Notes under the pieces: model-generated
Seen by the model: only the letters and a program-made list of their open reading frames with translations
Told to the model about the DNA's origin: nothing
The model's database searches: none
From: Candidatus Methylomirabilota bacterium
Lineage (GTDB): Bacteria; Methylomirabilota; Methylomirabilia; Rokubacteriales; CSP1-6
Direction of reading: 5' to 3'
DNA length: 62,210 nt
Assembly (NCBI GenBank): GCA_035936835.1
Contig: DASYVT010000178.1
Location: forward strand, 1 to 62,210
Translations under genes and position numbers: made by a program
In this document: positions 40,493 through 52,139 of the stretch, one piece after another
Position numbering within the stretch: position 1 is the stretch's first letter
Layout of the letters: every line of letters begins with the position of its first letter

Positions 40493-41313
40493 GGCAGCTT
40501 CTTCGGCACGGGCTTGCCGGCGATCCAGTCGGCGATCACGCCCACCACCTCGCGCTCGCGGCCGACAAAGCCGTGGGCGGCGAGGGCCTCGCAGGGCTCG
40601 GAGCGCGGCGGATCGCCGCCCGTTACCTCGACGAAGTCCACCTTGGCGCTGCCAGAGAGGGCCGCCGGCAGCCCTGTTGCGGCGCCGAAGGGCGAGGCCC
40701 AGCATGCGTCCTGCTGGTGGTGCACGACCAGGACCGGTGCCGTGATCCGCTTGAGCGGGGCGTCGTACACGGTGACGGCGCGGCTGCGGCCGCGTCCGCC
40801 GTCGCCCAGGCTCGTGGTCAGAACGAGACCCTTCACGTTCGGATCCTTGAGTGAGGCGGCGACGGCCGCGACCGACAGCGTGCCCCGGCTCGTCCCGGCG
40901 AGGTAGATCGGCGCGGGAGCCCGCGCCTCGAGCGACTGCAGTACCGTTGTCACGTCCTCCACGTGGGTCTTGCCCATCCTGAACGCATCGTCCATCCCCT
41001 GGGGCTGGTCCGAGGGTGTGTCGATGACCGCCACGAGAAGGCCGCGCGCGGCGAAGAGCCGCGCGGTCCGCACGAGGAAGTTCTGGCCCATGAAGATGCG
41101 TCCGTCGCGCTCGCCGAAGTGGTTGGCCCCGAGGCCGCCGGGGAACATGAGCAGCGTGGCCGATGGCTCCCCGGCGGGCGCCACAAGCAGGACGCGCACG
41201 GCGACGCCCGGGCGGGTTGGGACGCTCAGGATCTTCTGGGCTGAGACGGGGTTGGGCAGCACGGCGGTCACGAAACCGACCAGGAGGGCGGCTCGGGCCC
41301 ACGGGAGTCGCAT
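40489..41313 (-). CDS. Secreted alpha/beta hydrolase
   Basis: A 274-residue exported serine hydrolase. Signal peptide MRLPWARAALLVGFVTAVLPNPVSAQ. The core has LLMFPGGLGANHF (oxyanion strand) and the nucleophile elbow GTSRG in YLAGTSRGTLS (Ser). The catalytic Asp lies near VVHHQQDACW and the His probably in AHGFVGRE. Start ATG 41313; a TATACT box lies six bases upstream and no SD is visible. Its 3' end overlaps the methyltransferase stop by four bases (convergent). Esterase, dienelactone-type or peptidase activity cannot be separated. Confidence 0.8.
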   Translation of the reverse strand: MRLPWARAALLVGFVTAVLPNPVSAQKILSVPTRPGVAVRVLLVAPAGEPSATLLMFPGGLGANHFGERDGRIFMGQNFLVRTARLFAARGLLVAVIDTPSDQPQGMDDAFRMGKTHVEDVTTVLQSLEARAPAPIYLAGTSRGTLSVAAVAASLKDPNVKGLVLTTSLGDGGRGRSRAVTVYDAPLKRITAPVLVVHHQQDACWASPFGAATGLPAALSGSAKVDFVEVTGGDPPRSEPCEALAAHGFVGREREVVGVIADWIAGKPVPKKLP

Positions 41314-41319
41314 GGGCCG

Positions 41320-41325
41320 AGTATA
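41320..41325 (-). promoter_or_regulatory. -10-like TATACT box six bases before the alpha/beta hydrolase ATG
   Basis: Read on the minus strand: TATACT, CGGCCC, ATG. No SD can fit between the expected transcription start and the start codon, which points to leaderless translation. The plus-strand DNA 41360-41391 also contains TATACT and an extended TGCTATGCT box that may serve nuoA. Confidence 0.45.
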
Positions 41326-41426
41326 GGACAGCATGCGGTCGCGCCGTGATGCAGCCGCCTGATATACTGGGCACAGGGCCTGTGCTATGCTCCGCGCGGT
41401 TTTCCACATTCTCAGGAGGCGCGCAC

Positions 41427-41780
41427 GTGACCGGGTATCTGCCCGTGATGATCTTTTTCGCGCTCATCGTGGCGTTCGCCGTGGTGTCGCTCGCCGCGGC
41501 CTCCGTCCTGAGGCCCGCGCGCCCCTACTTCTCCAAGCTCGAGAACTACGAATGCGGTTCCGAGCCCATCGGCGAGGCGTGGGTGCAGTTCCCCGTGGGC
41601 TTCTACCTGGTCGCCTTGATCTTCATCGTCTTCGACGCGCTCGCCATCTTCCTCTTCCCGTGGGCGCTCGTGCTCCGCGGACTCGGGATGGGCGGCGTCG
41701 GCGTGATGGCGCTCTTCGTGGCCATCCTCGGGCTCGGCTGGGTCTACGCGCTTCGGGAGGGTATTCTCGAATGGAAATAA
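41427..41780 (+). CDS. nuoA: NADH-quinone oxidoreductase subunit A
   Basis: Small three-TM subunit at the membrane-arm/Q-module junction of complex I. Conserved [37 protein letters not shown] includes the flexible loop with the cysteine (ECGSEP) seen in NuoA/ND3. 117 residues from GTG 41427, which has AGGAGG eight bases upstream; the longer in-frame ORF is not family-like. First gene of an eleven-subunit operon; the last ten bases overlap nuoB. Confidence 0.95.
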
Positions 41781-42409
41781 AGGCTCCGACGCCGCAGATC
41801 CCGCCCGCCGTCTGGACCGAGTTCAAGGATCTTCAGGAGTGGGAGAAGCTCCACCAGACGCGGCCCGAGGGCGACAAGCACTCCGCGCTCTTCGAGACCC
41901 TGGAAGACGGCGTCTTCAACTTCCCGGGTGGCTTCATCGTGACCACGGTCGCCGACGCCTTCTTCAACTGGGCGCGCAAGTCCTCTGTCTGGCCCGTGAC
42001 CTTCGGCCTCGCCTGCTGCGCCATCGAGATGATGGCGACGTTCGCCTCGCGCTTCGACGTCGAGCGCCTCGGGATGGTGCCCTTCGCCTCGCCGCGCCAC
42101 TCGGACCTCATGATCGTCTCCGGCACCGTCACCATCAAGATGGCGCCGATGCTCAAGCGCATCTACGAGCAGATGCCCGATCCCAAGTGGGCCGTGTCCA
42201 TGGGCTCCTGCGCCAACTCGGGCGGGCCGTTCCGCCACGGCTACCACGTGGTCAAGGGCGTGGACCGCATCATCCCGGTGGACGTCTACGTGCCGGGCTG
42301 CCCGCCGCCGCCCGACGCGCTCCTCTACGGCCTGCTCATGCTCCAGGACCAGATCTCCCACTTCCGCAAGACGGGCCAGCGCGCCACGCCCACCGAGAAG
42401 ACCGACTAG
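41771..42409 (+). CDS. nuoB: NADH-quinone oxidoreductase subunit B
   Basis: Carries the N2 iron-sulfur cluster next to the quinone site. Cluster ligands are visible: [10 protein letters not shown] (two Cys), GSCANSGG, and [14 protein letters not shown]. 212 residues, with an N-terminal extension of ~35 residues before the core. ATG 41771 lies within the nuoA 3' end. A palindromic element follows the stop, interrupting the otherwise tight operon before nuoC. Confidence 0.96.
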
Positions 42410-42410
42410 T

Positions 42411-42532
42411 GCCGGCCCAACTAACTTCGCCATACTTCGTTCTCGGTCGGCAGCAGCCCTCAACGTACACCCACGTACGCCTCGGGCTGCTGCCTCCCTC
42501 GGGCCTCGTCTGGCTCGTCATTTGGCCCGGCA
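42411..42532. repeat. Palindromic stem-loop element, copy B, between nuoB and nuoC
   Basis: Three nested inverted repeats: outer GCCGGCCCAA (42411-42420) against TTGGCCCGGC (42523-42532), 9 of 10 pairs. The middle pair is perfect: GGCAGCAGCCC (42450-42460) and GGGCTGCTGCC (42485-42495). The inner pair is CGTAC (42465-42469) and GTACG (42476-42480). Submotifs CTTCGTT, CTCAACGTA, TACGCCTCG and GCCTCG occur at almost the same spacing in the 20.8 kb copy. Confidence 0.7.
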
Positions 42533-42583
42533 CTCTGCGGGCTCGCGCGAGCCATTGGGAATACCCGTTGGAGCCGCACTAGC

Positions 42584-43039
42584 GTGCCGACCCCGGAGCA
42601 GGCGCGCGTGCTGGTCCAGGAGCGGTTCGGCGTCACCGCATCGGGCGAGGGCTCCCTCCTCGTCGTGGAGGCGCCGGCCGACCGGTGGCTCCCGCTCGGC
42701 GGATTCGCCCGCGAGACCCTCGGCTGCGTCTATTTCTCCTTCATGACGGCCGTGGACTGGAAGGAGCAGGGGCTCGAAGTGGTCGCGCGCGTCGAGAACC
42801 TGGACGCCAACTTCGCCGTCTTCATGAAGACGAAGCTCGGCCCCGGCGAGACGCGCTGCGCCTCGCTCCAGCCCGTCTGGCGCGGCGCCGACTGGATGGA
42901 GCGCGAGTGCTACGACATGTTCGGCATCCGCTTCGAGGGGCATCCGGATTTGCGGCGTATCCTCCTGCCCCATGACTGGGAAGGCCACCCGCTGCTCAAG
43001 TCCTACGCCGTGGACACGCCGCATCCCCCGTATCGCTAA
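42584..43039 (+). CDS. nuoC: NADH-quinone oxidoreductase subunit C
   Basis: A 151-residue 30-kDa-type subunit of the hydrophilic Q-module. The C-terminal signature WRGADWMERECYDMFGIRFEGHPDLRRILLPHDWEGHPLLK is complete. GTG 42584 has no obvious SD; the stem-loop element ends 51 bases upstream and may affect its translation. NuoC is separate from NuoD here, as in most non-enterobacterial complexes. Confidence 0.94.
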   Translation: MPTPEQARVLVQERFGVTASGEGSLLVVEAPADRWLPLGGFARETLGCVYFSFMTAVDWKEQGLEVVARVENLDANFAVFMKTKLGPGETRCASLQPVWRGADWMERECYDMFGIRFEGHPDLRRILLPHDWEGHPLLKSYAVDTPHPPYR

Positions 43040-43058: not shown

Positions 43059-43694
43059 ATGATCCATGAGCTTCGGACCTACACGCTGCAGCCGGGCACG
43101 CAGGGGCAGTACTTGAAGAACTCCGCCGAGGTCGGGCGCAAGATACGCGGCGATAAGTACGGCAAGTTCGAGGGCGGCTGGTCGACGGAGTTTGGGACGC
43201 TGAACCAGTACGTCCACCTCTGGAGCTTCGAGAGCCTCAACGAGCGGGAGCGGCTGCGCGGGGAGCTCGCGAAGAACGAAGAGTGGACCAAGGTCTACCT
43301 GCCGCCGACGCGCGGCATGCTGCTGGCCCAGGAGAACAAGATCCTGTCGAGCGTTTTGCCGCTCAAGCCGCCCGCCGAGCCCGGCCATGTCTACGAGCTG
43401 CGCTGGTACCGGGCGCACGTCGGTCGGTTGGCGGAGTGGATCGGCCTCTTCAAGGGCGTCATGCCGACGCGCGAGAAGTACTCGAAGAATGTCGGGGTCT
43501 TCCAGACCGAGGTGGGCCAGCTCAACGAGGCCGTGCACCTCTGGGCCTACAAGGACCTCAACGACCGCGCCGCCGTCAGGAGCAAGGTGCTCCAGGACCC
43601 GGAGTGGCAGGTCTTCCTCGGCAAGTCCGCCCCGTGCCTCGCCGAGATGAAGTCCATCATCCTCAACCCGGCGCCCCACTCGCCGATGAAGTAA
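43059..43694 (+). CDS. NIPSNAP family protein inside the nuo operon
   Basis: A 211-residue protein made of two ferredoxin-like NIPSNAP repeats: residues ~1-100 (MIHELRTYTLQPG...TEFGTLNQYVHLWSFESLNERERLR...) and ~110-205 (VYELRWYRAHVGRLAEWI...TEVGQLNEAVHLWAYKDLNDRAAVR...). The hallmark ELRxYxxxPG and GxLNxxVHLWxYxdlxxR occur in each half. The family is known from mitochondria and bacterial catabolic clusters; function is unclear, possibly binding aldehydes or acting as a dimeric alpha/beta-barrel enzyme. ATG 43059 follows AAGGGAG. It sits 19 bases after nuoC and 12 before nuoD, so it is transcribed with complex I. Not a known complex I subunit. Confidence 0.88.
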   Translation: MIHELRTYTLQPGTQGQYLKNSAEVGRKIRGDKYGKFEGGWSTEFGTLNQYVHLWSFESLNERERLRGELAKNEEWTKVYLPPTRGMLLAQENKILSSVLPLKPPAEPGHVYELRWYRAHVGRLAEWIGLFKGVMPTREKYSKNVGVFQTEVGQLNEAVHLWAYKDLNDRAAVRSKVLQDPEWQVFLGKSAPCLAEMKSIILNPAPHSPMK

Positions 43695-43706: not shown

Positions 43707-44867
43707 ATGGACATCGAAGCGCGGCAGGTTCTCGAGATGGGCTACGGCGGAGCTGAGCGCATCACCATGAACATGGGGCCTCAGCACCCGTCCTCCCACG
43801 GGGTCTTCCGCGCGATCCTCACGCTCGAGGGCGAGACCGTGATCGCGGTGGACGCCGTCATCGGCTACCTCCACCGCTGCCACGAGAAGCTCTCCGAGAC
43901 GCTCACGTACACGCAGTACCCGTCCATCGCGTCCAAGACGGACTACGTCGCCGCGATGACGAGCGAGCTGGCCTACGTGCGCGCGGCGGAGATGATCGGC
44001 AAGATCGACGTGCCGAAGCGCGCGCAGTACCTGCGGGTCATCGCCGCGGAGCTCCAGCGCGTCGCCTCGCACTGCCTCTGGCTGGGCACGTGGTGCCTCG
44101 ACATGGGCGGGGCGCTGGGCGGCGGCGCGACGGTGTTCCTCTACTGCATCCGCGAGCGCGAGGACGTCCTCGACCTCTTCGAGTCGCTGACGGGCGCGCG
44201 GCTCCTCTACGGGTTCCACCAGGTCGGGGGCACGCGCTACGACATCCCGGAGGGGTGGGCCCGGAAGTGCCGCGAGACGGTGGACAAGATCGACGGGCGC
44301 ATTTACGAGTTCGAGGAGATGCTCGAGTCGAACGCGTTCTTCATGGCCCGGACCCAGGGCGTGGGCGTGGCGTCTCGCGAGCTGGCGCAGGAGGTCGGCA
44401 TCTCCGGGCCGCTCCTCCGCGGCTCCGGCGTCAACTACGACATACGGCGGGCGGAGCCCTACTCCTCCTACGGGGACTTCGACTTCAAGGTGCCCGTCGA
44501 GACGGCGGGGGACTGCTTCGCGCGCTACCGGGTGCGGATGGTCGAGTTCCGCGAGTCCATCAAGATCGTCCGCCAGGCTCTCGACGGACTTCCTGAAGGT
44601 CCCATCTCGTCTCGCCCGGGGGTCAAGTCGGTGGGGCAGGTGCGCATCCCGAAGGGCGAGGGCTACGCGCGCGTCGAGGGCGCGCGCGGCGAGGTCGGCT
44701 GCTATCTCATCGCGGACGGATCAGCCAAGCCCTACCGGATGAAGTGGCGCGGCGCCTCGTTCTCGAACCTCTCGATCCTGCCGCACATCATCCCGGGCCA
44801 CAAGGTCGCTGACGTCGTCGCCATCATGGGTTCCGTCGATCCCGTCTTCGGCGAAGTCGACCGCTAG
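43707..44867 (+). CDS. nuoD: NADH-quinone oxidoreductase subunit D
   Basis: The 49-kDa Q-module subunit related to [NiFe]-hydrogenase large subunits. MNMGPQHPSSHGVFR forms the quinone-headgroup His loop, and GYLHRCHEKL, PSIASKTDYV, GTRYDIPEGW and the C-terminal DPVFGEVDR are family hallmarks. 386 residues, normal. Quinone reduction occurs between NuoB and NuoD. It follows the NIPSNAP gene by 12 bases and precedes nuoH by six. Confidence 0.96.
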   Translation: MDIEARQVLEMGYGGAERITMNMGPQHPSSHGVFRAILTLEGETVIAVDAVIGYLHRCHEKLSETLTYTQYPSIASKTDYVAAMTSELAYVRAAEMIGKIDVPKRAQYLRVIAAELQRVASHCLWLGTWCLDMGGALGGGATVFLYCIREREDVLDLFESLTGARLLYGFHQVGGTRYDIPEGWARKCRETVDKIDGRIYEFEEMLESNAFFMARTQGVGVASRELAQEVGISGPLLRGSGVNYDIRRAEPYSSYGDFDFKVPVETAGDCFARYRVRMVEFRESIKIVRQALDGLPEGPISSRPGVKSVGQVRIPKGEGYARVEGARGEVGCYLIADGSAKPYRMKWRGASFSNLSILPHIIPGHKVADVVAIMGSVDPVFGEVDR

Positions 44868-44873
44868 CCCCTC

Positions 44874-45869
44874 ATGCTCTCCGCGATCTACCCCTTCATG
44901 GTGGGCTTCATCGTGCTGAACGCCATCATCGGTATGGTGACGTACGTGACGCTCCTCGAGCGGAAGTTCGCCGCGCGCATGCAGTCGCGCATCGGCCCCT
45001 ACCGCGTCGGGCCGCACGGGCTGCTCCAGCCCATCGCGGACGCGCTCAAGCTCATGATGAAAGAAGACATCGTCCCGCGGCTCGCCGACCGCCGCGTCTA
45101 CAACCTCGCGCCCATCGTGTTCCTGATCCCGTGCATGCTGATCTTTGCCACGCTGCCGTTCGCCCCGGGGCTCGGCGTCGCCGACCTCAACATCGGCATC
45201 CTCTTCTTTCTCGCGGTCTCGGCCATGGAGATCGTGGGGCTGTTCATGGGCGGCTGGGGCTCCAACAACAAGTACGCGCTCCTCTCCGTGATGCGGGCGG
45301 TCAACCAGATCATCTCCTACGACCTGCCGTTCGTCTTCGCCGCGATGGTCCCGGTACTGCTGACGGGCTCGCTCAAGCTCTCCGACATCGCCGCCGCGCA
45401 ACCGGACGTGCTGCACTGGTTCGTCTTCTACCCGGTGATCGGACAGTTGGCCTTCGTCGCCTACATCGTGGCGATGCTCGCGGCCGAGAACCGCGTGCCG
45501 TTCGACATCTTGGAGGCCGAGTCCGAACTCATCGCGGGCTTCCGCGTCGAGTACTCGGGGATGAAGTTCGCGCTGATCCAGCTGGGCGAGTACGCGCACG
45601 TCATCGCCACCTCCTTCCTGGGCGCGCTGCTCTTCCTGGGCGCCTGGGGCGGGCCCGGCGCGGGCGCGCTGCCGGCCCTGGGCGTGCTCTACTTCCTCCT
45701 CAAGGCGATGTTCATCTTCCTGCTGGTGACCTGGATACGCTGGAGCTTCGTCAGGATCCGGGTGGACCAGATCCTCGCCATCTCGTGGAAGCTGCTGCTG
45801 CCGGCCACGCTTGTCCTCCTCATGGCCACGGCGGTCGTCGTCGCGTGGAAGGGGCCCGTCGTTGGGTAA
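44874..45869 (+). CDS. nuoH: NADH-quinone oxidoreductase subunit H
   Basis: Membrane subunit forming the quinone chamber floor, about eight TM helices. YVTLLERKFAARMQSRIGPYRVGPHGLLQPIADALKLMMKED is the conserved ERK...RxGPNRVG-type loop, with NRVPFDILEAESELIAGFRVEYSGMKFA the E-rich loop 5. 331 residues. Its 3' end overlaps the likely TTG start of nuoI. Confidence 0.96.
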   Translation: MLSAIYPFMVGFIVLNAIIGMVTYVTLLERKFAARMQSRIGPYRVGPHGLLQPIADALKLMMKEDIVPRLADRRVYNLAPIVFLIPCMLIFATLPFAPGLGVADLNIGILFFLAVSAMEIVGLFMGGWGSNNKYALLSVMRAVNQIISYDLPFVFAAMVPVLLTGSLKLSDIAAAQPDVLHWFVFYPVIGQLAFVAYIVAMLAAENRVPFDILEAESELIAGFRVEYSGMKFALIQLGEYAHVIATSFLGALLFLGAWGGPGAGALPALGVLYFLLKAMFIFLLVTWIRWSFVRIRVDQILAISWKLLLPATLVLLMATAVVVAWKGPVVG

Positions 45870-46515
45870 ACGTCTTGGGGATAGGCACCTTGGGGATAAG
45901 CCCCTTGGGAACAGGCAGCTCGGCGAGAGCTTCTGGCACGACCTGGGCAACCTGCTGAGCGCCGTCAGGCGCGCGATGGGGATCACGCTCCTGAACCTCT
46001 TCCGCAAGCCCGTCACCGTGCACTATCCCGAGGTCAAGCGCGTCTACCCCGACCGCTTCCGCGGCGTGCTTGCGCTGACGTACGACAAGGAGACCGGCGA
46101 GGAGGACTGCATCGGCTGCCGGCTCTGCGAGTACATCTGCCCGCCGCAGGTGATCAAGGTCGAGATGCTCAAGGGGGAGAAGCGCAACTTCGCCAAGACC
46201 TTCACCCTCGAGCTGTACGCCTGCGAGTTCTGCGAGCTGTGCGTCCAGGTCTGCCCCACGGACGCCATCATCATGATGAAGTCCTTCGATCTGGCGACCA
46301 GCGATCGCCGCGAGATGCTGCTCGACAAGGACCGGCTCCACACGATCGGCCTCCAGTTCGAGCCCTCGTGGGCGACGGGCACCGGGCTTCGCGCCATGCA
46401 GACGCCTCCCAAGGCTCCCGCCGACGCCAAGGCGGAGGTCAAGGGCGCCACGCTGGAGGATGGCGCCGCCACGCTGGAGGGTGGTGCCGCCACGCTGGAG
46501 GATGGCGCCAAGTGA
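45862..46515 (+). CDS. nuoI: NADH-quinone oxidoreductase subunit I, with repeat-built ends
   Basis: Two [4Fe-4S] clusters (N6a, N6b) in the Q-module: CIGCRLCEYICP and CEFCELCVQVCP. The core LLNLFRKPVTVHYP is typical. The best start is TTG 45862, which overlaps the nuoH stop and follows GGAAGGGG; the ATG at 45976 would remove the amphipathic N-terminal helix. From TTG the first ~23 residues are a repeat, LGKR-LGDRH-LGDKP-LGNRQ-LGES, built from 15-base tandem units. The last 21 residues before the stop are three ATLE(D/G)GA units of 21 bases. Both are outside the conserved fold. 217 residues. Overlaps nuoJ by four bases (GTGA). Confidence 0.92.
   Translation: MGKRLGDRHLGDKPLGNRQLGESFWHDLGNLLSAVRRAMGITLLNLFRKPVTVHYPEVKRVYPDRFRGVLALTYDKETGEEDCIGCRLCEYICPPQVIKVEMLKGEKRNFAKTFTLELYACEFCELCVQVCPTDAIIMMKSFDLATSDRREMLLDKDRLHTIGLQFEPSWATGTGLRAMQTPPKAPADAKAEVKGATLEDGAATLEGGAATLEDGAK
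45874..45918 (+). repeat. 15-base tandem repeat coding the NuoI N-terminus
   Basis: CTTGGGGATAGGCAC, CTTGGGGATAAGCCC and CTTGGGAACAGGCAG follow in tandem, with a partial unit on each side (TTGGGTAAACGT before, CTCGGCGAG after). They encode LGDRH, LGDKP and LGNRQ. Units are in frame, so copy-number changes keep the frame. Confidence 0.8.
46447..46509 (+). repeat. 21-base tandem repeat coding the NuoI C-terminus
   Basis: Three units GCCACGCTGGAGGATGGCGCC-like (46447-46467, 46468-46488, 46489-46509). Units 1 and 3 are identical (the middle differs at two positions). They encode ATLEDGA, ATLEGGA, ATLEDGA, and stop three bases before the nuoJ start. Confidence 0.85.
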
Positions 46516-47006
46516 CCCTCGAGGTCGTGAGCTTCTGGGGGCTGGCCGTCCTGCTCATCGGCTCCGCCCTGGCCGTGGTGCTGACCAAGAACCTCTTCCA
46601 CTCGGTCCTCTACCTCGCGCTGTCGCTGACGGCGACGGCCGGCGTGTTCCTGGCGCTCGACGCGGAGTTTCTCGCGGCGGTGCAGCTCCTTCTCTACGCG
46701 GGCGGCGTCGTCACGATCGTGGTCTTCGCCATCGTGGTGACGGAGCGGCTCGTCGGCGACCGCATTACGCAGACGAGCCGGCAGATCCTGACCGGCCTGG
46801 TGCTGGCGGGCGCCTTGCTCCTGGGGATCCTGCGCTTTCTGCGCGGCGCCGACCTGCCCGTCGAGCGCCCGGTCATCGCCGTGGACGTGACGCGGGCCAT
46901 CGGCCAGGTGCTGCTGACCGAGTTCGTGCTGCCCTTCGAGCTCCTGGCCGTGCTGCTGCTGGTCGGGCTCCTGGGCGCGCTGTACTTCGCGAGGCCGGAA
47001 GAATAG
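46512..47006 (+). CDS. nuoJ: NADH-quinone oxidoreductase subunit J
   Basis: Membrane subunit with five TM helices, at the base of the membrane arm. TKNLFHSVLYLALSLTATAGVFLALDAEFLAAVQLLLYAGGVVTIVVFAIVVTERL is the conserved first half with the pi-bulge helix TM3 (LLYAGGVV). 164 residues from GTG 46512, in a GTGA overlap with nuoI. Confidence 0.95.
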   Translation: MTLEVVSFWGLAVLLIGSALAVVLTKNLFHSVLYLALSLTATAGVFLALDAEFLAAVQLLLYAGGVVTIVVFAIVVTERLVGDRITQTSRQILTGLVLAGALLLGILRFLRGADLPVERPVIAVDVTRAIGQVLLTEFVLPFELLAVLLLVGLLGALYFARPEE

Positions 47007-47007
47007 C

Positions 47008-47307
47008 ATGGGTCTTGGCGCCTACCTCACGCTCGCCGCGGTGCTCTTCGCCATCGGCTTCTTTGGCGTCGTCACGCGGCGGAACACCATCGGCATCCTG
47101 CTCGGCATCGAGCTGATGCTCAACGCCGTGAACATCAACCTGGTCGCCTTCGCGCGCTTCAACGCCGACGTGGTGGGAATGGTCTTCACCGCGTTCACCA
47201 TCCCGATCACGGTGGCCGAGGTGGCGCTGGGGCTGGCGATCGTCATCCTCATCTTCAGGATGAAGCGCACGGTCATCGCCGATCATCTGGATCTCCTCAG
47301 AGGGTGA
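47008..47307 (+). CDS. nuoK: NADH-quinone oxidoreductase subunit K
   Basis: Small three-TM subunit (99 residues). GVVTRRNTIGILLGIELMLNAVNINLVAF contains the conserved Glu of TM2 (GIELMLNAVN) and the later AEVALGLAIVI the second proton-path Glu. Directly behind nuoJ. Confidence 0.96.
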   Translation: MGLGAYLTLAAVLFAIGFFGVVTRRNTIGILLGIELMLNAVNINLVAFARFNADVVGMVFTAFTIPITVAEVALGLAIVILIFRMKRTVIADHLDLLRG

Positions 47308-47317
47308 CCGGGCACCC

Positions 47318-49180
47318 ATGACCGACCCGGCCTACCCCGCGCTCGCCGCCCTTCTGCTGCCGGCATGCGCCTTCGTCTTCCTCGGGTTGGTGGCGCCGCT
47401 GCGACGGCTCGGGCGCCCGGCGGCGTATCTCTCCATCGTGTTCTCGGCGGCCGCGCTCGTGGCGGCGCTCGGCGCCCTCCGGCTTGCGGGTGGCGGCGGC
47501 TATTCCGAGTGGCTGTGGAGCTGGATCCCGGCCGAGGCGGGCCCGCTCGCCACCGTCGGCGTGCTGGCCGACGGCGACTCGGCGCTCATGCTGGTGCTGG
47601 TGGCGCTGATCTCGTTCCTGGTCCAGGTCTACTCGCTCGGCTATCTCTCCGACGAGTCCATGCCCTCGCTCGGCCGCTACTACGCCTACCAGTCGCTCTT
47701 CGCGTTCTCGATGATGGGGCTCGTGCTCGCGCCCAACTTTGTCCAGCTCTTCATCTTCTGGGAGCTGGTGGGCCTCTGCTCCTACCTCTTGATCGGCTAC
47801 TGGTACACCAAGCCCGAGGCGGCGCGCGCCGCCGTCAAGGCGTTCTGGATCACCAAGGCGGGTGATGTCGGCCTGCTGATCGGCATCGTGCTCCTGTGGC
47901 GGCAGACGGGCACCTTCGACTTCCTCGAGCTGCTCATGCTGGCCGACGCGGGCGTCATCCCTCTGGCCGGGCTCGGCGTCATCACCTTCTGCATCTACCT
48001 CGGCGCCGCGGGCAAGTCGGCGCAGTTCCCGTTCCACGTCTGGCTGCCGGACGCCATGGAAGGTCCCACGCCCGTCTCTGCGCTGATCCACGCCGCCACC
48101 ATGGTGACGGCCGGCGTCTACCTCCTCACGCGAACGGTCTGGCTCTTCAGGCTCACCCCGGAGGTGATGGAGATCGTGGCGTGGAACGGCGCCTTCACGG
48201 CGCTCCTCGCTGCGGTGCTCGCCTGCGTCCAGACCGACATCAAGCGCGTGCTGGCCTATTCCACCGTCTCCCAGCTCGGCTACATGATGGCGGCCATTGG
48301 GGCGGGCTTCGCCTCGGCCGGGTTCCTCCATCTGCTGACCCACGGTCTCTTCAAGGCGCTGCTCTTCCTCGCCGCGGGCGCCGTCATCCACGCCGTGGGC
48401 ACCAACGATATCTTCGAGTTGGGCGGGCTCTGGGGAATGGGCGGGCTCTGGCGCCGCATGCCCCAGACCGCCATCGTGTTCGTGATCGGCACGCTGTCGC
48501 TGGCCGGCGTCCCGCTCTTCGCGGGCTTCTTCTCCAAGGAGGAGATCCTGGGCGCGGTGCTCGCGGGCGGCTTCCCGGTGCCGTTCGCGATGCTGCTGCT
48601 GGGCGCCTTCCTCACGGCGTTTTACATGTTCCGCGTGGTCTTCGTCACCTTCTTTGGAGCGCCGGCGGCCTCGCATGGCGCGGACAGCCACGTCCACGAC
48701 GCGCCCCCCTTCATGGCGCTGCCGCTGTGGATCCTGGCCATCATGTGCGTGGGCGTGGGCACGCTCTTCGCCGTCTGGCACCCCGAGGCCGAGTTCGAGG
48801 CGCTGGGCTGGCTCACGCTCGCCGCCATCGGCGTCGCGGCGGCAGGCATCGCGCTCGCGTACCTCGTCTACCAGCGCCGCGCGATCAGCGCCGACGGGCT
48901 CGCCTCGATGTTCGCGCCTATTCGAGCGGCGGCGCTCAGGCGCTTCTGGATCGACGACGTCTTCGTCGGGATCTACGGCTGGCTGATGCTGCCGTTCTCG
49001 AGGCTCGTGGGCTGGATCGACCGCTACTTCGTTGACGGCATCTTGAACGTCCTCTCGGCCTGGACCCTGATGGCGGGCGGCGGGCTCAGGCGCATCCAGT
49101 CGGGCCGGGCGCAGGACTACGTCTACGGCATCGCGCTGGGCGTCCTCGCCCTGATGGTCGGGATGTGGTGGCTGCAATGA
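47318..49180 (+). CDS. nuoL: NADH-quinone oxidoreductase subunit L
   Basis: The distal proton-pumping subunit with the lateral helix. 620 residues, full length. SLGYLSDESMPSLGRYYAYQSLFAFSMMGLVLAPNFVQLFIFWELVGLCSYLLIGYW holds the conserved Glu/Lys channel region, and KSAQFPFHVWLPDAMEGPTPVSALIHAATMVTAGVYLL the antiporter motif. The C-terminal half contains the broken TM and long helix. 10 bases after nuoK; its stop overlaps the nuoM start (ATGA). Confidence 0.96.
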   Translation: MTDPAYPALAALLLPACAFVFLGLVAPLRRLGRPAAYLSIVFSAAALVAALGALRLAGGGGYSEWLWSWIPAEAGPLATVGVLADGDSALMLVLVALISFLVQVYSLGYLSDESMPSLGRYYAYQSLFAFSMMGLVLAPNFVQLFIFWELVGLCSYLLIGYWYTKPEAARAAVKAFWITKAGDVGLLIGIVLLWRQTGTFDFLELLMLADAGVIPLAGLGVITFCIYLGAAGKSAQFPFHVWLPDAMEGPTPVSALIHAATMVTAGVYLLTRTVWLFRLTPEVMEIVAWNGAFTALLAAVLACVQTDIKRVLAYSTVSQLGYMMAAIGAGFASAGFLHLLTHGLFKALLFLAAGAVIHAVGTNDIFELGGLWGMGGLWRRMPQTAIVFVIGTLSLAGVPLFAGFFSKEEILGAVLAGGFPVPFAMLLLGAFLTAFYMFRVVFVTFFGAPAASHGADSHVHDAPPFMALPLWILAIMCVGVGTLFAVWHPEAEFEALGWLTLAAIGVAAAGIALAYLVYQRRAISADGLASMFAPIRAAALRRFWIDDVFVGIYGWLMLPFSRLVGWIDRYFVDGILNVLSAWTLMAGGGLRRIQSGRAQDYVYGIALGVLALMVGMWWLQ

Positions 49181-50715
49181 CCCAGTTCCCGACGCTGTCC
49201 GTCATCACGTGGGCCCCGTTCGTGGGCGCCGTCCTCATCATGTTCCTGGCGCGGCGCCGCCCGCTCCTGGTCCGCTGGATCGCCCTCGTCTCCACCGGCG
49301 TCTCCCTGGCGCTCTCGATCCGGATCTACGCGCTCTACGAGCGGGAGGCGGCGGGCTTCCAGTTCTACGAGGAGCTGCCGCTGGTGCCGCCGCTCGGCAT
49401 CAACTACCAGCTGGGCGTGGACGGCATGAGCCTGCTCATGGTGCTGCTGACCAGCATCATCATCTTCGCGGGCGTCTTCGCCTCGTGGACGGTCAAGGAG
49501 CGCAGCCAGGAGTTCTACGCCCTCCTGCTGCTGCTCGTCACGGGCGTCTACGGCGTCTTCGTCTCGCTCGACCTCTTCGTCCTCTTCCTCTTCTACGAGA
49601 TCGCCGTGCTGCCGATGTACCTCCTGATCGGCATCTGGGGCTCTTCGGGCGAGATCCGCCCGCAGGGCATCTTCGGATGGGCCTTCCGCCGGACGGGCGT
49701 CGGCACCAAGGAATACGCGGCGATGAAGCTGACACTGTATCTCCTCTTCGGGTCGGCCTTCATCCTGGTCGGCATCCTGGCGCTGTACGTCGCCTCGGGC
49801 TCGGTCTCCTTTTCGTTCCTCGAGATGGAGCAGATCCGGTTCGACCCGGCGCTGCAGTCCTGGGTCTTCCTCGCCTTCTACGTGGGCTTCGGGATCCTCG
49901 CGGGCATCTGGCCGCTGCACACGTGGTCGCCCGACGGCCACGCGTCCGCGCCCACCGCGGTGTCCATGCTCCACGCGGGCGTGCTCATGAAGCTCGGCGC
50001 CTATGGCGTCGTCCGCCTCGGTCTCGGGCTGCTCCCCGATGGCGCGACGCAGTGGGTGTGGCTGGTCGGCGCCATCGCGTGCGTCAACATCGTCTACGGC
50101 GCGCTCTCCTCGATGGCGCAGACGGACCTCAAGTACGTCATCGCCTACTCCTCGGTCTCCCACATGGGCGTGGTCATGCTCGGCATGGCGACGCTGACGG
50201 AAACCGGGCTCAATGGGTCCATCTTCCAAATGTTCGCCCACGGGATCATGACCGGGCTCTTCTTCGCCCTGGTCGGCCTGGTCTACGAAAAGGCGCACTC
50301 GCGCGCCATCTTCTCCATGGGCGGCTTCGGCCAGATGATGCCGGGCATCGCGACGGCCTTCACCGTCGCGGGCCTGTCGTCCATGGGCCTGCCCGCGACG
50401 GCGGGCTTCGTCGCCGAGTTCCTGACCTTTCTCGGCGCCTGGCAGTCGGCCTACTCCTGGTGGCTCTTCCCCGGCGTGCTCGGCGCCTTCCTGACCTCCG
50501 TCTACGTCCTCCGCGTCACCAAGCAGATCTTCTGGGGCCCGAAGAGCGCCGACCCCCACTTCCAGCACCTGCCTGACGCCCAGGGGCCCGAGTGGGTCGC
50601 GCTCATCATCCTGGTCGGCACGCTCGTGCTCTTCGGCGTCGCGCCGGGCATCGCCATCGGGCCCGTGGACACGGCGACCGTGCCGCTCCTGCTCCGGTTC
50701 GGAGTCCTGCCGTGA
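49177..50715 (+). CDS. nuoM: NADH-quinone oxidoreductase subunit M
   Basis: Second Mrp-like antiporter subunit, 512 residues from ATG 49177. INYQLGVDGMSLLMVLLT, FLFYEIAVLPMYLLIGIWG (conserved Glu), PLHTWSPDGHASAPTAVSMLHAGVLMKLGAYG (Lys/His proton path) and YVIAYSSVSHMG are typical. Coupled to nuoL by ATGA and to nuoN by GTGA. Confidence 0.96.
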   Translation: MTQFPTLSVITWAPFVGAVLIMFLARRRPLLVRWIALVSTGVSLALSIRIYALYEREAAGFQFYEELPLVPPLGINYQLGVDGMSLLMVLLTSIIIFAGVFASWTVKERSQEFYALLLLLVTGVYGVFVSLDLFVLFLFYEIAVLPMYLLIGIWGSSGEIRPQGIFGWAFRRTGVGTKEYAAMKLTLYLLFGSAFILVGILALYVASGSVSFSFLEMEQIRFDPALQSWVFLAFYVGFGILAGIWPLHTWSPDGHASAPTAVSMLHAGVLMKLGAYGVVRLGLGLLPDGATQWVWLVGAIACVNIVYGALSSMAQTDLKYVIAYSSVSHMGVVMLGMATLTETGLNGSIFQMFAHGIMTGLFFALVGLVYEKAHSRAIFSMGGFGQMMPGIATAFTVAGLSSMGLPATAGFVAEFLTFLGAWQSAYSWWLFPGVLGAFLTSVYVLRVTKQIFWGPKSADPHFQHLPDAQGPEWVALIILVGTLVLFGVAPGIAIGPVDTATVPLLLRFGVLP

Positions 50716-52139
50716 GCGGCGGCATGGCGCTCGAGGTCGGGCTCGCGATCCTGATCCTGCTGGTCTTAATCACGGGTCTCTTTTGGCCCGGAAACGACAG
50801 GCGGCGGCTCGGCGGCTTAGTGGCCATCGGGCTCGCCATCCTGCTCTGGATGGCGTTCCGCGTTGACCCGGGCGCCGTCCTCTTCGGAGGCAGCTTCGTC
50901 CAGGACGAGCTGGCGATCTTCTCGAAGCGGCTCTTCCTGCTGGCGACCTTCCTGGGCGTGCTGGCCTCGCTGTCCCTTCGCGCGCCCACCTTCGCGCGGC
51001 GGGCGACCGAGTACTACGTCGCCATGCTCGCCTCGCTGCTCGGGATGCTGGTGCTGGCCTCCGCACGCGAGCTCATCCTGCTCTTCGTCGCCTTCGAGCT
51101 GATGTCCATCCCGCTGTACGTCATCTCCGGGTTCCGCAAGCGGGAAGAGGAGGCCGTCGAGGCGGCGCTCAAGTTCTTCCTCATCGGCACCGTGTCCTCG
51201 GCCTTCATCGTCTACGGGCTGTCCTTCGTCTACGGCATCTCGAACACGACCGACATGGCGGGCGTGGCGGCGGCGCTCCAGGACGGCCACCCGCTGCTGA
51301 TCCTGGGCATGGTCCTGACGCTGGGGGGCCTCGGCTTCAAGATCGCGGCCTTTCCCTTCCACATGTGGGTGCCGGACACGTACGAGGCGGCCGGCACGCC
51401 TTTCGTCGCGTGGCTGTCGGTGGCGCCCAAGGCCGCGGGCTTCGTCGTGATGTTCCGGCTCTACCTGGAAGGCGTGGGCGGGCCCGTCGTCCTCTGGGTG
51501 CCGCTCGCGGCGGGGCTGGCCGCGATCACGATCATCGCGGGCAACCTGATGGCCATTCCCCAGCAGAACATCAAGCGCCTGCTGGCCTACTCGGGCATCG
51601 CGCACATCGGCTACATGCTGGTCGGCTTCGCCGCCGTCTCGGCCTCGGGCGTGGCGATGATGCTCTTCTACCTGGTCGCCTATCTCTTCGGGAACATGGG
51701 CGCCTTCTTCGTGGTGGAGGCCGTGGCCCAGTCCGACGGCTCCGAGGCCATCTCGGCGTACAAGGGGCTGGCCCAGCGGTCACCATTGCTTGCGCTCTCG
51801 ATGCTGCTCTTCCTGCTGTCCCTGGGCGGGATCCCGTTCGTCGCGGGCTTCTGGGCCAAGCTCTTCGTCTTTTGGGCCGCGATCGAGGGCTGTACCGGCT
51901 GGTGCCAAATGTATTGGCTGGTGCTGGTTGGTGCTATCCTGACGGTCGTGGCGCTCTTCTACTACCTGCTCGTGGCCAAGCGCATGTACATCGACGCCCC
52001 CGAGCGCACGCAGCCTGTGGCCGTCTCGCCCTTCCTGGCGTTCTCCATCTTCGTCTGCGCGGCGGGTGTCGTCGGCATCGGCGCGTACCCGAAGCCCCTC
52101 GTGATGGCGGCCCTGCGCGCCGCTTCGGGCCTGTTCTAG
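50712..52139 (+). CDS. nuoN: NADH-quinone oxidoreductase subunit N
   Basis: Third antiporter-like subunit, 475 residues from GTG 50712. LFVAFELMSIPLYVISGF, KIAAFPFHMWVPDTYEAAGTPFVAWLSVAPKAAGF and IKRLLAYSGIAHIGYMLVGF match NuoN. Last subunit of the operon. No nuoE, F or G (NADH dehydrogenase module) is present between or beside these genes. A small secreted-protein gene follows after three bases. Confidence 0.95.
   Translation: MSGGMALEVGLAILILLVLITGLFWPGNDRRRLGGLVAIGLAILLWMAFRVDPGAVLFGGSFVQDELAIFSKRLFLLATFLGVLASLSLRAPTFARRATEYYVAMLASLLGMLVLASARELILLFVAFELMSIPLYVISGFRKREEEAVEAALKFFLIGTVSSAFIVYGLSFVYGISNTTDMAGVAAALQDGHPLLILGMVLTLGGLGFKIAAFPFHMWVPDTYEAAGTPFVAWLSVAPKAAGFVVMFRLYLEGVGGPVVLWVPLAAGLAAITIIAGNLMAIPQQNIKRLLAYSGIAHIGYMLVGFAAVSASGVAMMLFYLVAYLFGNMGAFFVVEAVAQSDGSEAISAYKGLAQRSPLLALSMLLFLLSLGGIPFVAGFWAKLFVFWAAIEGCTGWCQMYWLVLVGAILTVVALFYYLLVAKRMYIDAPERTQPVAVSPFLAFSIFVCAAGVVGIGAYPKPLVMAALRAASGLF

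Follow-up and report, generated by a model that had tools for sequence, protein, structure and literature searches.

A gene for a two-domain NIPSNAP protein lies between nuoC and nuoD in the operon for an 11-subunit complex I of Candidatus Rokubacteria, and the arrangement recurs in 24 genera of one order. The NIPSNAP family and the 11-subunit complex I are already known, each separately. The operon was analyzed in a stretch of 62,210 nucleotides (the window), which is contig C178 of a 4.1-Mb MAG (G000) of Candidatus Rokubacteria. Its relatives among named records are Candidatus Rokubacteria or Rokuibacteriota genomes; Rokubacteria are uncultured soil and groundwater bacteria.

The operon and its NIPSNAP gene

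All eleven nuo genes were matched by Pfam, in the order nuoABC-NIPSNAP-DHIJKLMN on the forward strand. The nuoA reading frame (41163 to 41780; PF00507, 104 bits) contains its conserved domain from about 41480, and its true start is uncertain. It is followed by nuoB (41774 to 42409; PF01058, E value of 6.5e-30), nuoC (42584 to 43039; PF00329, 122 bits), the NIPSNAP gene, nuoD (43707 to 44867; PF00346, 302 bits), and nuoH (44874 to 45869; PF00146, 349 bits). The reading frames of nuoI (45811 to 46515; 4Fe-4S ferredoxin domains, e.g., PF12838) and nuoJ (46239 to 47006; PF00499, 101 bits) have true starts downstream of the respective ORF starts. The remaining genes are nuoK (47008 to 47307; PF00420, 85 bits), nuoL (47318 to 49180; PF00361 plus PF00662), nuoM (49165 to 50715; PF00361, 211 bits), and nuoN (50592 to 52139; PF00361, 218 bits). 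Pfam searches found no nuoE, nuoF, or nuoG in the window operon, and nuoF-type matches were located on other contigs. Judged by its gene content, the operon is that of an 11-subunit complex I lacking nuoEFG, a feature that the first-pass annotation had missed. The nuoB-nuoC spacer (42410 to 42583, forward strand) holds a palindromic-looking dispersed repeat element with eight further copies in the genome, at most 88% identical; the congener G001, with a spacer of about 4 bp, lacks this element at the site.

The open reading frame at 43059 to 43694 (forward strand) encodes a 211-amino-acid product in which a Pfam search of the translation identified two NIPSNAP domains. PF07978 was matched twice, at full length, with 163.4 bits against a curated cutoff of 22.3 and an E value of 1.7e-48. 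The ATG start at 43059 is supported by an N-terminal motif, MIxELRTYTL, that aligns across all homologues. Gaps of 19 bp from nuoC and 12 bp to nuoD separate the gene from its neighbors, so that the placement of a two-repeat NIPSNAP between these genes, as first annotated, was borne out. The dN/dS ratio of NIPSNAP against congeners was 0.11 to 0.14, comparable to that of nuoD; by this measure, the gene is under purifying selection. Consensus scans, themselves weak evidence, found no promoter-like or terminator-like sites between 41300 and 45000, which fits one nuo-NIPSNAP transcript, and we infer that NIPSNAP is co-transcribed with the nuo genes.

Relatives of the window genome carry two types of nuoD, the window type and a second type that is approximately 40% identical and that adjoins nuoF on the same contig in several of them. 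In the window genome itself, contig C148 encodes homologues of nuoB, nuoC, nuoD, nuoH, and nuoI (approximately 30 to 50% identical) together with a nuoF match. NIPSNAP is not present with this nuoF-linked set; therefore, NIPSNAP goes with the NADH-module-free 11-subunit complex. The link to complex I proposed in the first-pass annotation thus stands for the form without nuoEFG, which is not the ordinary complex I, and fails for the nuoF-linked complex I that the window genome also encodes. The 11-subunit complex I described in Desulfitobacterium hafniense (PMC11238625) is encoded by the same set of 11 genes, identically ordered and likewise without nuoEFG. The Rokubacteria operon differs from it in the extra NIPSNAP between nuoC and nuoD, and the Rokubacteria host has the second, nuoF-linked complex I. 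The electron donor of the 11-subunit complex is described as unknown and acknowledged as an open question (PMC11238625). Just upstream of the nuo operon, many Rokubacteria genera carry a POR plus DUF6537 gene of the indolepyruvate/2-oxoacid ferredoxin oxidoreductase type, as seen upstream of nuoA at L144:2017-3708 and in L139, L140, and L146, with a PilZ response regulator between this gene and the operon. The upstream gene may hint at reduced ferredoxin as an electron source for the 11-subunit complex.

Conservation and exceptions within the order

A census was taken of 60 genomes of the order (27 genera) and 35 genomes of the phylum that belong to other orders. Our conclusions draw on NuoB, NuoC, NuoD, NuoH, and NIPSNAP. 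Window-type nuoD was found in 53/60 genomes of the order. A close NIPSNAP (E ≤ 1e-40) was likewise present in 53/60, in addition to a one-domain copy in G037. NIPSNAP and nuoD were adjacent on one contig in 50 of the 53 nuoD-bearing genomes, representing 24 genera and families f1, f3, and f4, and nuoC was directly 5' of NIPSNAP in the loci inspected. The nuo-type NIPSNAP was absent from 35/35 genomes of the other orders; outside the order, G052 carries an unlinked homologue that is 31% identical, and the sister-order operons examined run from nuoC to nuoD and are NIPSNAP free. Because NIPSNAP is present throughout the order and absent from the other orders, its insertion is dated to approximately the ancestor of the order. 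One scan of genome contigs with the window NIPSNAP found the nuoC-NIPSNAP-nuoD arrangement in Rokubacteria alone. In many genera, the nuo operon is flanked upstream by the indolepyruvate ferredoxin oxidoreductase-type gene and downstream by genes for TetR, a sigma factor, L21, L27, and Obg, and it has other neighbors in the window's genus and in G006. Despite these changes in the flanks between genera, the position of NIPSNAP between nuoC and nuoD is constant.

These data confirm the conserved gene order that the first-pass annotation had proposed to look for in related genomes, in 24 genera and three families, and they show that NIPSNAP is neither missing from all close relatives nor newly arrived. 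The fixed association of NIPSNAP with complex I that it envisaged holds within one order and does not extend to sister orders or to distant bacterial homologues. Since all of the genomes are fragmented MAGs and some NIPSNAP copies are shortened, an assembly artefact might be considered, as might a recent insertion, but the same gene order in dozens of independent assemblies, large contigs included, and in three families makes both extremely improbable, and the order-wide census rules them out. The same gene order in 24 genera, together with purifying selection, also excludes a chance arrangement.

Several genomes depart from this pattern. In the congener G002, nuoC directly abuts nuoD and a NIPSNAP that is 73% identical lies at another locus; in G004, also a congener, NIPSNAP occupies the same alternative site with neighbors in common, and the nuo contig begins inside nuoD, so that the upstream part of the operon is not covered. 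The NIPSNAPs of these two genomes group with those of G008 and G029, apart from their own genus, and a single genus clade was rejected (AU P = 0.038). Read most simply, these sequences would mean that the operon copy was lost and that a NIPSNAP from another lineage took its place at a different site. That both genomes carry a copy elsewhere, with the G002 operon having none, suggests a continued need for NIPSNAP. G014 has an intact operon with nuoC next to nuoD and no close NIPSNAP, so NIPSNAP is not strictly required. Neither the operon nor a close NIPSNAP was found in G005 (89% complete) or G015 (92% complete). Both were also missing from G076, G077, and G079, but these are just 64 to 77% complete, and since NIPSNAP and the nuo genes are neighbors, the lack of both from an incomplete MAG says little. 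NIPSNAP is at a contig end in G072 and is present in G036 (73% complete), where no operon was detected.

The slot itself also varies. In G021, it is taken by two divergent NIPSNAPs in tandem (L036:848-2142), and in G023 and G024 it holds just the second of these types, a paralog that is 43 to 44% identical. G037, from a different family of the order, has a single-domain NIPSNAP in the slot (L092:1107-1439; 111-amino-acid frame; PF07978, 110.8 bits), and the second domain is shortened in G026 and a few other MAGs. That a 43 to 44% identical paralog or a one-domain protein fills the slot argues against a precise docking interface. For the G000/G001/G003 clade, discordance with the NuoBCD tree suggested that NIPSNAP had been replaced in situ; since a clade with G006/G013/G033 was not rejected (AU P = 0.21), such a replacement is no more than a possibility.

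Predicted fold and homologues

The AlphaFold2 model of the window NIPSNAP is a tandem dimeric alpha-beta barrel (DABB) with a mean pLDDT of 95.9. In this predicted model, each half matches solved NIPSNAP domains with Z scores of 14 to 16 and root mean square deviations of 1.2 to 1.8 Å over 101 to 104 residues, and the ferredoxin-like DABB fold is that of the solved NIPSNAP structures. Solved bacterial single-domain NIPSNAPs (1vqy, 1vqs, 2ap6, 5ixu, 5k9f, and 5kak) have the same domain, with 24 to 37% identity per domain. The window protein differs from them in having two domains per chain and a nuo operon location, and the solved proteins have no assigned function. Full-length neighbors at Z scores of 17 to 18 are putative monooxygenases, an anthrone oxidase-like protein, and sulfur oxygenase reductase. 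The tandem DABB monooxygenase-like proteins 3f44, 3mcs, and 2pgc and the anthrone oxidase-like 5f9p are alike in full-length fold, with identity of just 7 to 10%; sulfur oxygenase reductase is the nearest full-length fold (VIA-align), a likeness of fold alone at 7 to 9% identity. YgiN (a single-domain match) and the heme-binding HmoB gave Z scores of 10 to 12. The DABB fold is by itself no proof of catalysis.

Across 44 NIPSNAP homologues, nuo linked and non-nuo alike, 25 residues are invariant. They include R6, Y8, R30, H53, W55, and R67 in the first repeat and R115, Y117, R138, H160, W162, R170, and R174 in the second. In each repeat, an R/Y pair lies in strand 1 and an H/W pair in strand 3 (R6, Y8, H53, and W55; R115, Y117, H160, and W162), and by strand alternation these residues probably face the barrel interior, forming a putative pocket. 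The invariance of the same residues in nuo-linked and non-nuo homologues indicates conserved ligand chemistry.

Homologues with these residues occur outside nuo operons in Alphaproteobacteria and Chloroflexota. The Chloroflexota NIPSNAPs of L063 and L064 are 53 to 57% identical to the Rokubacteria nuo-linked protein in a non-nuo context, possibly through horizontal transfer. No consistent pathway emerged among the neighbors of non-nuo homologues, which include an RNase R-type RNB protein, SDR, sulfur transport proteins, polysaccharide deacetylase, and GST. The window genome has a second two-domain NIPSNAP (G000:C170:6032-6640; L001), 33% identical and beside a beta-eliminating lyase (threonine-aldolase-type) gene, and paralogs resembling it (31 to 38% identical) occur across the family. 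The mitochondrial proteins NIPSNAP1 and NIPSNAP2 belong to the same Pfam family, PF07978. They are mitophagy signals (PMC8122514), and no established complex I role for them was found in the literature searched. A ferrochelatase interactome lists NIPSNAP2 with NDUFS2, NDUFV2, NDUFA8, and NDUFAF1, as co-listed prey only. The literature searched held no publication pairing NIPSNAP with "nuo operon," and complex I goes unmentioned in the Rokubacteria genome paper.

Possible roles of NIPSNAP at complex I

Our preferred reading, which we hold tentatively, is that NIPSNAP is a soluble ligand-binding or catalytic helper produced with the Q-module, a lineage-fixed twelfth member of the operon. The protein would be cytoplasmic and would bind or transform a small molecule tied to the quinone reaction of the 11-subunit complex, with quinol, a quinone by-product, or another reactive metabolite as candidate ligands and a mode of action like that of cofactor-free monooxygenase-type DABB proteins. 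Its production would keep pace with that of the Q-module proteins NuoB, NuoC, and NuoD, and it would work in trans, a unique docking surface being dispensable. Sequence does not distinguish among assembly, carbonyl detoxification, and quinone chemistry, the three roles suggested in the first-pass annotation.

A close rival, to which we give somewhat less credence and which we consider rather doubtful, is that NIPSNAP binds the Q-module (NuoB, NuoC, NuoD, and NuoI) as an accessory subunit or an assembly factor, for example, one that covers the surface left bare where NuoEFG is missing or helps to dock the electron donor. The gene sits exactly between two Q-module genes of an operon lacking the NADH module in 50/53 genomes, the nuoF-linked complex I in the window genome is free of it, and 11-subunit complexes have been proposed to dock a variety of donors (PMC11238625). 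However, the protein can be replaced by a paralog of 43 to 44% identity, by a single-domain form, or by a copy that came from a different lineage and is encoded elsewhere, G014 manages without NIPSNAP, sister-order nuoD copies lack it, and the most conserved residues are common to non-nuo homologues. Because those residues are common and divergent, shortened, and trans-encoded versions are tolerated, the ligand-binding or catalytic helper is favored over a tightly docked subunit. The common residues, found in homologues of unrelated context in Alphaproteobacteria and Chloroflexota, would also fit a housekeeping NIPSNAP enzyme that entered at the nuoC-nuoD junction in the ancestor of the order and was kept for steady expression, functionally unrelated to complex I, as would the standalone copies in G002 and G004 and the gene in G036 (73% complete) with its operon undetected. 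Such a passenger is unlikely, since the position is kept over 24 genera despite altered flanks, operon and NIPSNAP are both missing in G005 and G015, paralogs take over the slot, and where the gene seems to have been lost, a copy at another locus compensates.

NIPSNAP proteins are widespread in bacteria and mitochondria. The genomic evidence for a working NIPSNAP-complex I link is strong, with the gene kept in 24 genera and backed up elsewhere when missing from the operon. This finding provides a concrete, testable lead on NIPSNAP function, since it names the complex for experiments, and the 11-subunit complex I gains a candidate partner. A bolder proposal, which we regard as a long shot, is that NIPSNAP is a dedicated, hitherto undescribed component of the Rokubacteria NADH-module-free complex I that handles quinone or electron-input chemistry. 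If true, this would point to an ancestral function of NIPSNAP close to the Q-module of complex I, which could extend to mitochondria.
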